From assembly GCA_947447625.1 (NCBI GenBank), contig CANFKS010000006.1:1-64000 (forward strand): DNA of 64,000 nt, in the 5' to 3' direction. This document shows, one piece after another, positions 8,902-63,146 of the stretch (positions are counted from its first letter, which is position 1; each line of letters opens with the position of its first letter). The DNA comes from Rhodospirillales bacterium (GTDB taxonomy: Bacteria > Pseudomonadota > Alphaproteobacteria > Acetobacterales > Acetobacteraceae). The position numbers and the translations under genes are program-made. The notes below the pieces were generated by a model. The model saw only the letters and a program-made list of their open reading frames with translations. It was not told where the DNA came from and did no database searches.

Positions 8902-10224
8902 TCACGCTGCGACGCCAGCGAGCGGGGGCGGAATATCGACACCGCTCAGCGCGTAGTCGCGCAGCTTGTTGCGCAGGGCACGGATCGAAATGCCGAGCAT
9001 CACGGCAGCGTGAGTGCGGTTGCCGTTGGTGTGGGAGAGTGTGGTGAGGATGAGATCGCGTTCGACGTCCTCGATGCGGCGGCCGACAAAGGTTTCGTCC
9101 GGTTGTAAGCCGGTGGGACGGGGGGGGCGGGATTCGAGGTCAAGCGCGTCGGGGCCAATTTCGCTGCCCTCGGCCAGCAGGACAGCGCGGTGCATGGTGT
9201 TTTCGAGTTCGCGCACATTGCCGGGCCAGGGCGCGCGCTGGAGGCTGGCGAGGGCGGATGGCATCAGCCGGCGCACGGGCACGCCGTTCAGTTTGGCGTA
9301 GTGCTCGGCGAAATGTTCGGCAAGGCGGGCGATATCGGAGGGCCGCTCGGCAAGGGAGGGGAGCCGCAGGCTGACCACATTGAGGCGGAAATAGAGGTCC
9401 TCCCGAAAGCGACCACCGGCGATTTCCTCGGTCAGGGCGCGGTTCGAGGTCGCGATGATGCGGACATCGACACGCACCGGTTTGCCGCCGCCGAGCCGGT
9501 CGACTTCGCGCTCCTGGATCGCGCGGAGCAGCTTGGCCTGGATGCGAACGTCCATTTCCGAGATTTCGTCGAGCAGCAATGTGCCGCCATCGGCCATTTC
9601 GAATTTCCCGAGACGGCGGGTGACGGCACCGCTGAAGGCACCTTTTTCATGGCCGAACAACTCGCTTTCAAGCATCGTCTCGGGGATGGCGGCACAGTTG
9701 ACGCCGACGAAGGGGCCCCGGGCGCGGCGCGAAAGGGAGTGTATGTAGCGGGACATCACCTCCTTGCCCGTGCCGGACGCACCTGTCAGCAGGATGGAGG
9801 CATCCGTGCGGGCGATCTGTTCGGCGCGCTTGAGGACAGCGATCATGGCCGGATCGCGGGCAATCGGGGTGTGCCGGTCCCGGCTGGCCTCGTGCAGGAT
9901 GGCGGCGATGAGCAGCGGATCCGGCGGCAGGGGCAGGTATTCCCGGGCGCCGGCGCGGATGGCGGCGACCGCCTCGTCGGCCTGTGCATTGGTGCCGCAG
10001 GCGATAACGAAAATGTCGTGGCGCTGGGCGCGCAGATAGTCGAGCAGGGTGGCGATCGGCAGCGCAACATCGCAGAACACCATCTCCACATGGGTGCCGC
10101 GGCCGATCGCCTGGATCGCCTGGTCAACGCTGTCGGCGTGTTCCAGCGCGGCGCCGGCGTCCCGCGCGATGCGAGAGGCCTCGCCGAGGCGGCCGGCAAG
10201 CGCTCCGACAATCATGATGCGCAT
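8902..10224 (-). CDS. flbD: sigma-54-dependent flagellar transcriptional regulator FlbD
   Basis: Receiver-like N-terminus, AAA+ GASGTGKEVMSRYIH, GAFSGA, Fis-like C-terminus; Caulobacter-like fliF-fliG-flbE-fliN-flbD order. Confidence 0.88.
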   Translation of the reverse strand: MRIMIVGALAGRLGEASRIARDAGAALEHADSVDQAIQAIGRGTHVEMVFCDVALPIATLLDYLRAQRHDIFVIACGTNAQADEAVAAIRAGAREYLPLPPDPLLIAAILHEASRDRHTPIARDPAMIAVLKRAEQIARTDASILLTGASGTGKEVMSRYIHSLSRRARGPFVGVNCAAIPETMLESELFGHEKGAFSGAVTRRLGKFEMADGGTLLLDEISEMDVRIQAKLLRAIQEREVDRLGGGKPVRVDVRIIATSNRALTEEIAGGRFREDLYFRLNVVSLRLPSLAERPSDIARLAEHFAEHYAKLNGVPVRRLMPSALASLQRAPWPGNVRELENTMHRAVLLAEGSEIGPDALDLESRPPRPTGLQPDETFVGRRIEDVERDLILTTLSHTNGNRTHAAVMLGISIRALRNKLRDYALSGVDIPPPLAGVAA

Positions 10225-10245: not shown

Positions 10246-10294
10246 GTCATGGGTCTGATCGTCATGGGTCTGATCGTCATGGGTCTGATCGTCA
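10246..10294. repeat. 15-bp tandem direct repeat (gtcatgggtctgatc x3 plus 4 bp) between flbD and fliN
   Basis: Exact units at 10246-10260, 10261-10275, 10276-10290. Confidence 0.95.
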
Positions 10295-59952: not shown

Positions 59953-61413
59953 ATGTCCGCTTCCCTCGCCGGCCAGACCCCGCTTGCCACGACCGATGCG
60001 CTGTTTTTCGATCGTCCCGACGCGGCGCTTGACCGCGATGCGGCGGCACGGCTGCTGGGTCGGGCCCTGGCCAATGCCGATGATGGCGAGTTGTTCCTGG
60101 AATACCGGGAGAGCGAGTCCATCAGCCTCGATGACGGACGGATCCGCAGCGCCGAGTTCGATACCTCGCTTGGCTTCGGATTGCGTGCCGTGGCGGGCGA
60201 GGCGACGGGCTTTGCCCATGCCGGGGAAATCAGCGAGGACGCGCTGAAGCGGGCGGCGGCGACGGTGGCGGCGGTGGCTTCCGGACACCAGGGCGTGGCG
60301 GCCGAACCGCCGCGGGCGAGCAATTCGCGGCTCTATAGCGCGGTGAGCCCGTTTGCGGGGACCGATTTCGGCAAGCGGACCGGCCTGCTGGCGGAGATCG
60401 ACCACTACGCGCGCGGCAAGGACGCCGGGGTGCGCCAGGTGATGGCATCGATCACCGGGGAATGGCAGGCCGTGCAGATCCTGCGCGCCGATGGTGGGCG
60501 GGTGGCGGATCTGCGGCCGTTGGTGCGGCTCAACGTGTCGGTCGTGATGGAGAAGGACGGGCGGCGTGAAACCGGCAGCTATGGCACGGGCGGTCGGTTC
60601 GACTATGGGCGGATCATGGAGGAGGGCATCTGGCGCGCTGCCGTCGACGAGGCGATCCGTCAGGCGCTGGTCAATCTCGACAGCCGGCCGGCGCCGGCGG
60701 GGGAAATGCCGGTGGTGCTGGGCTCGGGCTGGCCCGGCATTCTGCTGCACGAGGCGATCGGGCATGGGCTGGAGGGCGACTTCAATCGCAAGAAGACCTC
60801 GGCGTTCTCGGGCCTGATGAACCAGCGGATTGCATCCCCCGGGGTTACGGTGGTGGATGACGGCACTTTGGTGGACCGTCGCGGCAGCATCACGGTAGAC
60901 GACGAAGGGACTCCATCGGGTCGGACCGTGCTGATCGAGGACGGGTATCTTCGTGGATATTTGCAGGACCGGTTGAATGCCCGCCTGATGGGGGTACAGC
61001 CGACCGGAAACGGGCGCCGGCAGTCCTACGCGCATGCGCCGATGCCGCGGATGACCAACACCATCATGCTGGGCGGCCAGCACACCCGCGAGGAGATGAT
61101 CCGCTCGGTGAAGCGCGGCTTGTTCGCGGTGAATTTCGGTGGCGGGCAGGTCGACATCACGTCGGGCAAGTTCGTTTTCTCGGCGAGTGAAGCCTATATG
61201 ATCGAGGACGGACAGATTACGTACCCGGTAAAAGGCGCGACCTTGATCGGCAATGGTCCGGATGCGCTGACCAAGGTGGAGATGATCGGCGATGACCCGG
61301 CGCTTGACCCCGGGATCGGCACGTGCGGCAAGAATGGCCAAGGCGTGCCGGTGGGTGTGGGACAACCGACGTTGAAGGTGTCAGGGTTGACGGTCGGCGG
61401 GACAAGAGCGTGA
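59953..61413 (+). CDS. tldD: metalloprotease TldD
   Basis: 486 aa; DDGRIRSAEFDTSLGFGLRAVAGEATGFAHAGEIS..LLHEAIGHGLEGDFNRKKTSAFSG (HExxxH) ..VDITSGKFVFSASEAYMIEDGQIT. Confidence 0.96.
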   Translation: MSASLAGQTPLATTDALFFDRPDAALDRDAAARLLGRALANADDGELFLEYRESESISLDDGRIRSAEFDTSLGFGLRAVAGEATGFAHAGEISEDALKRAAATVAAVASGHQGVAAEPPRASNSRLYSAVSPFAGTDFGKRTGLLAEIDHYARGKDAGVRQVMASITGEWQAVQILRADGGRVADLRPLVRLNVSVVMEKDGRRETGSYGTGGRFDYGRIMEEGIWRAAVDEAIRQALVNLDSRPAPAGEMPVVLGSGWPGILLHEAIGHGLEGDFNRKKTSAFSGLMNQRIASPGVTVVDDGTLVDRRGSITVDDEGTPSGRTVLIEDGYLRGYLQDRLNARLMGVQPTGNGRRQSYAHAPMPRMTNTIMLGGQHTREEMIRSVKRGLFAVNFGGGQVDITSGKFVFSASEAYMIEDGQITYPVKGATLIGNGPDALTKVEMIGDDPALDPGIGTCGKNGQGVPVGVGQPTLKVSGLTVGGTRA

Positions 61414-61631: not shown

Positions 61632-61671
61632 TTAGCGTTTTAACGACGTTTTAACGCCGTTAAAACGCTAA
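61632..61671. promoter_or_regulatory. triple 10-bp motif (CGTTTTAACG/CGTTTTAACG/CGTTAAAACG) in a perfect 14-bp-arm inverted repeat; candidate operator
   Basis: Motif starts at 61636, 61647, 61658 (11-bp phasing); arms TTAGCGTTTTAACG (61632-61645) and CGTTAAAACGCTAA (61658-61671). Confidence 0.65.
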
Positions 61672-61756
61672 TGTGCGAACAGGGGTGTTTACTCCTTCCA
61701 ACGCAACCAAGTTGGGCTGCTCAACCCCATAGCCCACCATCGGAAGGACCTTCATC

Positions 61757-62248
61757 ATGACCAATTCCAACATTGCCACCGCCGATGCCGGCACGGTTCG
61801 TCTCGGCGCGATCGCGCGCACGCTGCCCGTCGCCGATGCCGGCACGGTTCGTCTCGGCGCGATCGCGCGCACGCTGCCCGTCGCCGATGCCGGCGCGGTG
61901 CGTCTCGGCGCTATCGCGCGCACGCTGCCCGTCGCCGATGCCGGCGCGGTGCGTCTCGGCGCGATCGCGCGCACGCTGCCCGTCGCCGATGCCGGCGCGG
62001 TGCGTCTCGGCGCTATCGCGCGCACGCTGCCCGTCGCCGATGCCGGCACGGTGCGTCTCGGCGCGATCGCGCGCACGCTGCCCGTCGCCGATGCCGGCAC
62101 GGTGCGTCTCGGCGCTATCGCGCGCACGCTGCCCGTCGCCGATGCCGGCACGGTGCGTCTCGGCGCGATCGCGCGCACGCTGCCCACCGCCGATGCCGGC
62201 ACGGTGCGTCTCGGCGCCATCGCCCGCACGCTGCCCGTCGCGACCTGA
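61757..62248 (+). CDS. tandem-repeat peptide/protein: 8-aa leader MTNSNIAT + nine 17-aa repeats (ADAG[T/A]VRLGAIARTLP[V/T]) + AT
   Basis: SD-like GGAAGGA 10 nt upstream of ATG; differences between units are mostly synonymous in this frame (gtt/gtg, gcg/gct/gcc). Confidence 0.75.
   Translation: MTNSNIATADAGTVRLGAIARTLPVADAGTVRLGAIARTLPVADAGAVRLGAIARTLPVADAGAVRLGAIARTLPVADAGAVRLGAIARTLPVADAGTVRLGAIARTLPVADAGTVRLGAIARTLPVADAGTVRLGAIARTLPTADAGTVRLGAIARTLPVAT
61781..62239. repeat. 51-bp tandem direct repeat, 9 units
   Basis: Units start 61781, 61832, 61883, 61934, 61985, 62036, 62087, 62138, 62189; no length variation. Confidence 0.97.
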
Positions 62249-62298
62249 GGCCAGGGCGGTCGCGCGCCGTATGGTTCAGCCGCGTCAGACCTCATGAG

Positions 62299-62320
62299 AA
62301 ACCGGGCCTGCGCCCGGTTT
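62299..62320 (+). terminator. putative rho-independent terminator after repeat-peptide gene
   Basis: AAACCGGGC-ctgc-GCCCGGTTT followed by ccttgtg; perfect 9-bp stem. Confidence 0.65.
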
Positions 62321-62369
62321 CCTTGTGTTCAGCCGGCGCGCCCGGCCTCATCCCGCAGCGAGACCCCGC

Positions 62370-63146
62370 ATGACCGAAAAGCCCATCCCAGCCAAAGCCG
62401 ATCCCCGCGTCCGCTTCTACCGCATGATCCCCGACATCCGCCTGCCGCAGCGTGCCGACCGCTCGGCCGCGGGCAGCCTGCCGACCCGGGCCTTCCGCTA
62501 TTGCGACCCCGTCACCACCGCCTCGGCCTTCGGCTATTACGTCTTCACGCCCCTGAACTTCACCCTGATCTGGGACGGGCACGACATCCAATGGACCTAT
62601 GAGGGCAACGAGCACGGCTGGATGCCCCTGAAAACAGCGCAATACCCTTATTTTCCTGCCCATTTCAACGAGCGGGCGCCCGAGGAGATCCAAGGGTTTT
62701 CGCCGCCTATGCTGGCGTCCTTGCAGGAGCCCGGCCTGGTGAATATCTGGTCCGGCCTGATTGCGCGCACCATTCCAGGCTGGAGCTTGCTGGTGCGCCC
62801 CCCGGTGAACTTTGCTCGCCGCGGGGGATATGAATTGTTCGAGGGGATCATCGAGACCGACCGCTGGTTCGGGCCGCTGCTGACAAATATCAGACTGACG
62901 AAGACCGACACACCGATCGAATTCAACAACGAGCTTCCCCTTTTCCAGGTGCAGCCGATTCCGCGCGAAGCCCTGGAGGAGCCGGCACAAAACAACTTCG
63001 CCATCACCCGCGACATTGAGGGTCTGCAACCGGAGGATTGGGACGACTTCTACAACACCGTCGTGCGCCCCAATGTCACCGAGAACCGCCCCCGCGGCGA
63101 ATACGCCGCCGCCGCTCGCCGGCGCCGCAAGGCTGACGAGGCCTAG
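62370..63146 (+). CDS. DUF6065-like conserved hypothetical protein
   Basis: Start MTEKPIPAKADPRVRFYRMIPDIRLPQRADRSAAGSLPTRAFRYCDPVTTASAFGYYVFTPLNFTLIWDG..WSLLVRPPVNFARRGGYELFEGIIETDRWFGPLLTNIRLT; family assignment from memory. Confidence 0.7.
   Translation: MTEKPIPAKADPRVRFYRMIPDIRLPQRADRSAAGSLPTRAFRYCDPVTTASAFGYYVFTPLNFTLIWDGHDIQWTYEGNEHGWMPLKTAQYPYFPAHFNERAPEEIQGFSPPMLASLQEPGLVNIWSGLIARTIPGWSLLVRPPVNFARRGGYELFEGIIETDRWFGPLLTNIRLTKTDTPIEFNNELPLFQVQPIPREALEEPAQNNFAITRDIEGLQPEDWDDFYNTVVRPNVTENRPRGEYAAAARRRRKADEA

Follow-up and report, generated by a model that had tools for sequence, protein, structure and literature searches.

The locus examined here raises the question of what is made from a short gene built almost entirely of one repeated peptide, and of what the gene next to it contributes. 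It was studied within the window, that is, the whole stretch of 64,000 nucleotides of contig CANFKS010000006.1 that was analyzed, and three features describe the repeat gene itself:

61757..62248, + strand: repeat-peptide gene of 163 aa (sequence and repeat analysis), with its ATG at 61757 and its stop ending at 62248
within 61757..62248, + strand: MTNSNIATA (9 residues) at the N-terminus, then nine cores of 14 aa with linkers P(V/T)A of 3 aa, and PVAT at the C-terminus (sequence)
61742..61748, + strand: SD-like GGAAGGA, 8 nt 5' of the ATG (sequence)

The layout given by the initial annotation, an ATG behind an SD-like GGAAGGA followed by nine 51-bp units and a stop, is confirmed from the sequence and by TRF, which reports a period of 51, 9.1 copies, 96% match and a score of 840, by far the strongest array of the window (the runner-up scores 98). 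The nine units, 51 bp each, read ADAG(T/A)VRLGAIARTLP(V/T) and can be divided into a core, DAG(T/A)VRLGAIARTL (DAGTVRLGAIARTL), and a linker, P(V/T)A, with the codons ACG/GCG, GTT/GTG, GCG/GCT/GCC, GCG/GCC and GTC/ACC varying between units. An SD-preceded start is found in about two thirds of the relatives as well (75/110). Elsewhere in the window, at 10246-10294, 3.3 copies of a 15-bp unit (GTCATGGGTCTGATC) form a perfect tandem repeat, which lies in the spacer next to the start of one further gene:

8902-10224, - strand: sigma-54-activator-like gene, adjoining the 15-bp tandem repeat

A search of relatives with the repeat protein recovered homologous arrays from each of the four genomes of the same genus and from several other genera; the contigs of the same-genus relatives break off inside the arrays, and wherever the downstream flank of the relatives could be read, a DUF6065 gene came next. 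One match, in G028, with SLRQWPAPN repeats, was discarded as an unrelated repeat. The unit shared by the family is a core of 14 residues with the consensus D-x-G-K-V-R-L-G-[GA]-x-x-P-x-L, or more fully D-[AST]-G-[KR]-[VI]-R-[LFMIV]-G-[GA]-x-x-[PR]-x-[LP], in which the D at -3 is conserved at 90%, the R at 88% and the Gly invariantly, some of these positions being demanded by the search pattern itself. Core length is constant, while the linkers span 0-11 residues across loci (none in Reyranella and Vineibacter; PTA, KPASVA and PPVRVSAEAVA in others), so that the repeat period differs between loci, mostly within 14-25 residues. Copy number ranges from 1 to about 19 cores per peptide, with single-copy members, 29-50 aa long, at the lower end, such as MKIVLPANDVSDAGRVVLGGGYRLPSARA (L056). 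In most loci the final core is located at the C-terminus or close to it, and in 44/110 proteins the stop comes exactly at the core end. At the other end the peptides begin with a short segment, mostly 11-26 aa ahead of the first core motif, in which conservation is not evident; any classical leader is therefore putative. The proposal that ARTLP is a recurrent cleavage site did not survive this comparison, as ARTL occurs mainly in the genus of the window and its near relatives and the P sits in the variable linker, and what the family conserves instead is D-x-G-K-V-R-L-G. The genome of the window holds a second system outside the window (L051, G000:C10:14500-20000), in which a single-core peptide of the other peptide class, MKTSYTPPARAGVSAKLAARLADAGRVRFGAGVGIISRRRR (also given as ...ADAGRVRFGAGVGIISRRRR), precedes another DUF6065 gene.

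The gene that follows the array was absent from the account of the initial annotation:

62370..63146, + strand: DUF6065 partner of 258 aa with a predicted dUTPase-like fold (PF19541, AF2, Foldseek)

Its product matches PF19541 with E 6.8e-15 and 55.6 bits, above the cut-off of 26.6. A small core-encoding ORF lies directly upstream of DUF6065 in 91 of the 100 distinct loci of the window-type DUF6065 branch that have at least 460 nt upstream, against 1/769 other same-strand positions of the same loci and 0/100 on the opposite strand; in other DUF6065 branches the upstream core peptide was found in 0/28. The pairing of peptide and DUF6065 is solid. It spans several alphaproteobacterial orders and about a hundred loci, with Rhodopila globiformis DSM 161, Elioraea tepidiphila DSM 17972, Roseomonas rosea DSM 14916, a Reyranella, Vineibacter terrae and a Rhizobium plasmid among the carriers; on the plasmid, where DDGKVHIANKSPAF is one of the cores, the same pair is annotated as "hypothetical protein" and "DUF6065 family protein". 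Among 399 genomes of the phylum searched at E <= 1e-20, the branch was matched only in the genome of the window itself, so that its distribution appears largely alphaproteobacterial.

In a tree of 124 DUF6065 proteins, the peptide-bearing branch comprises 119 rows with 100/100 support and long branches to the others, and the core peptide is restricted to it. Peptide classes follow this tree: the GAGxR class (class R) requires 3 changes against 29.4 when shuffled, and all classes together 15 against 55.3, a clustering that is inflated by near-copies, the splits nonetheless being deep. Peptide and DUF6065 have evolved together.

About 9 of the 100 branch loci are without a recognizable upstream peptide. 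A peptide-less sub-branch is formed by L102/L136, L142, L147/L071 and L149/L087, where the peptide may have been lost or unlinked, and an MFS-type gene precedes DUF6065 in L102 and L142. On the Rhizobium plasmid (L269, 5861-6879), two hydrophobic hypothetical genes that resemble pieces of an MFS-type transporter follow the pair and could possibly form an exporter. In L090 (G182:C64), the ORF ahead of a divergent DUF6065 ends in a different, cysteine-bearing repeat, FGDGGCIYRFGDGGCIYRFGDGGCISRFG, which is perhaps another core type.

The partner was modeled by AF2 with a pLDDT of 90.6 and a pTM of 0.82. Among solved structures Foldseek ranks dUTPases first (E 2e-4; TM 0.37 normalized by query, 0.74 by target), and among viral proteins the model matches uncharacterized phage proteins and dUTPases. 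The hhalign comparison of DUF6065 with dUTPases was not significant (E 0.68), its register being as expected with E162 at the position of the catalytic Asp, and the link to the dUTPase fold is accordingly taken from Foldseek. A PDB sequence search with the DUF6065 profile gave a chance-level match only. In the region of DUF6065 aligned to dUTPases the PRSG serine is absent and the Asp is replaced by Glu, the glycine-rich motif V (GGFGSTG) is absent from the partner, and extra helices are present relative to dUTPases. The invariant DUF6065 residues include C45, W68, W75, W127, R143, N147, E158, E162, N173, W224 and R250, which make up no recognizable catalytic motif. The model and its matches suggest that the partner is a repurposed dUTPase-like fold and not a dUTPase.

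Three further elements surround the pair:

62298..62321, + strand: hairpin between the peptide gene and DUF6065, with a perfect 10-bp stem, GAAACCGGGC-CTGC-GCCCGGTTTC, then a T-rich tail, CTTGTGTT
61648..61666, no strand assigned: palindrome GTTTTAACGCCGTTAAAAC, with the half-site GTTTTAACG at 61637-61645 (sequence; element pattern TTTTAACG-x-CGTTAAAA)
59953..61413, + strand: tldD (PmbA/TldD metallopeptidase; Pfam), directly upstream of the repeat-peptide gene

Perfect stems of the kind seen in the window occur in 17/105 loci against 0.2 expected, and the folding energy reaches z < -2 in 71/104 peptide-DUF6065 spacers against 4/104 gene-internal controls. Read from its sequence, the hairpin fits a candidate partial terminator or attenuator, yielding peptide in excess of the partner; alternatively, it is possible that it is a full terminator and that DUF6065 has a separate promoter. 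TAACG[CG]CGTTA also precedes the peptide gene in G001-G004, the genomes of the same genus, in L115 and in L116 (as TAACGTCGTTA), and the stretch 61637-61666 is a candidate operator or promoter element, limited to the genus and two near relatives, no family-wide upstream motif having been found. No Rfam match was obtained within the window. A SARP-like gene lies upstream, mostly divergently, in 40/71 loci and downstream in 7 more, with a BTAD domain in the Vineibacter copy; in the genome of the window, SARP-like homologues occur elsewhere, unlinked to the peptide locus. In L058 and L063 a shared small protein of ~100 aa, ending in ...AIERDF(V/L)(A/T)FE(L/M)..., is encoded in the interval that separates the SARP-like gene from the peptide; for its L063 copy Pfam gave no match.

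The gene tldD is a housekeeping gene. Of the 71 loci whose flank is long enough, 14 have it directly upstream, and since all 14 fall within a single branch of the DUF6065 tree, the linkage may reflect inherited position only; TldD could possibly serve as the processing protease of the peptide. The only linked genes are DUF6065, often the SARP-like regulator, and tldD in the one branch; no consistently linked known RiPP enzyme, recognition element, dedicated protease or exporter was found in the loci examined.

On balance, we hold it probable that the repeat ORF is a multi-core substrate peptide, that DUF6065 recognizes and modifies each core, and that the cores are released at the linkers. The locus would probably be controlled by the SARP-like regulator, which is linked to it in many relatives but not in the window, and the hairpin between the two genes would cut transcription of DUF6065, leaving the peptide in excess over its partner. 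DUF6065, as a repurposed dUTPase-like fold, would recognize the 14-residue DxG[KRT]VRLG[GA]xx[PR]xL and modify every copy, and a protease, possibly TldD/TldE, would then free the cores by cutting within or close to the linkers. We infer the enzymatic action of DUF6065 on the cores, its chemistry, the cleavage, the regulation and the role of the product. The suggestion of a multi-core precursor-like peptide in the initial annotation is strongly strengthened by the range of 1 to ~19 cores, the variable linkers and the adjacent, co-evolving partner gene. The system is a candidate for a new RiPP-like class and for an apparently previously unknown route to modified peptides. That it constitutes a new class of ribosomal natural products or signaling peptides in Alphaproteobacteria, with a dUTPase-fold DUF6065 iteratively modifying up to ~19 cores per substrate, is a possibility that falls a little short of an even prospect.

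Tight pairing and co-evolution suit binding as well as catalysis, and the peptide could therefore be a multivalent ligand, scaffold or regulator in which each core binds one DUF6065 protomer, recruiting, inhibiting or activating it with no cutting or modification. Such an arrangement agrees with the lack of a consistently linked protease or exporter and with variable linkers of a beads-on-a-string kind, and binding of regulatory proteins is known for dUTPase-like folds, Stl complexes being among the Foldseek matches. However, a copy number that runs from 1 to ~19, with single-copy members as small as 29 aa, is unusual for a scaffold, and a hairpin that lowers the partner relative to the peptide suggests an excess of substrate; we regard this alternative, the main rival, as unlikely.

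Much less can be said for a structural, surface or amyloid-like repeat protein with DUF6065 as its chaperone or assembly factor, which we consider improbable. The 17-residue-period solenoid had been put forward in the initial annotation together with structure prediction of the 163-aa protein, and the AF2 model does draw short strands once or twice per unit, which favors a beta-solenoid. It is, however, a weak model (pLDDT 64.7, pTM 0.51) with no PDB fold match at E <= 0.001, and no hydrophobic signal peptide is evident in the N-termini read. The solenoid is disfavored because the period varies between loci and single-unit members exist.

The array could also be open by chance. Two further frames are open across it, of 174 aa on the + strand and 211 aa on the - strand, because 51 is divisible by 3; an open frame alone consequently proves nothing for this array, and coding was tested through selection instead, by counting the differences between units of one array in all six frames. 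In the reported frame the window array has a pN/pS of 0.36, based on few sites. When 50 related arrays are pooled, the ratio in that frame is 0.20, in line with the earlier suggestion of selection on the peptide; the antisense frame with the same wobble position gives 0.29 and the four remaining frames 1.8 to 3.2. Frame-independent substitutions, which had been named as the sign of a satellite, are absent, with 0.20 in frame against at least 1.8 in the off-wobble frames. The repeat peptide is a real protein-coding gene under purifying selection and not a satellite. Non-coding satellite or repetitive DNA has next to no probability, since against a unit length divisible by 3, the other open frames and the repeat-like behavior by which same-genus contigs end inside the array stand this pooled ratio, a peptide motif kept across orders, a constant start, stop, strand and position with respect to DUF6065, and a Rhizobium copy annotated as a CDS.

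The peptide family is apparently undescribed: it is absent from Pfam and NCBIfam, and the literature searched, outside of which lay most subscription papers and preprints, mentions DUF6065 or KVRLGG nowhere and holds nothing relevant tying dUTPase to RiPP precursors. The statement that no described family could be recognized thus holds for the libraries and papers searched. Matches of the repeat protein in Pfam, NCBIfam, PHROGs and PADLOC were of zero stretch or below the cut-off, as is typical of repeats, and are not believed. A dUTPase-like fold has no known precedent in peptide maturation. A domain of unknown function is now tied to a defined partner, 14-residue cores at about a hundred loci; if DUF6065 modifies these cores, a new fold would be added to peptide maturation. 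The natural variants with one to nineteen cores form a ready test bed for iterative enzymes.

With regard to known systems, the partner gene resembles Pfam PF19541 in scoring above its curated cut-off and differs from other DUF6065 in that its branch is separate, fully supported and the sole one with peptides. Its predicted fold is similar to the dUTPase superfamily, with E162 placed at the catalytic Asp by a low-score alignment, whereas the dUTPase catalytic set of PRSG serine, motif III Asp and glycine-rich motif V is not found in it. TldD/TldE proteases remove the leader of microcin B17 (PMC5810440), and in the window tldD lies directly upstream, a housekeeping gene in a linkage confined to one branch. 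Multi-core RiPP precursors are known, as in microviridins with several cores (PMC5934393) and in fungal repeat peptides processed by Kex2 (PMC7329392). Unlike these, the system in the window has no ATP-grasp, Kex2 site or other known maturase, its partner is DUF6065 with a predicted dUTPase-like fold, and no clear conserved leader is present. In terms of RiPPs in general, no known maturase, protease or exporter was found in the cluster, and because the locus is without a known maturase its membership is that of a candidate; a short ribosomal precursor gene does stand beside a conserved partner gene, and conserved cores under purifying selection are joined by variable spacers. Like the multi-core RiPP precursors, it unites near-identical cores in one short polypeptide, varies in spacers and copy number, and is adjoined by a dedicated partner gene.
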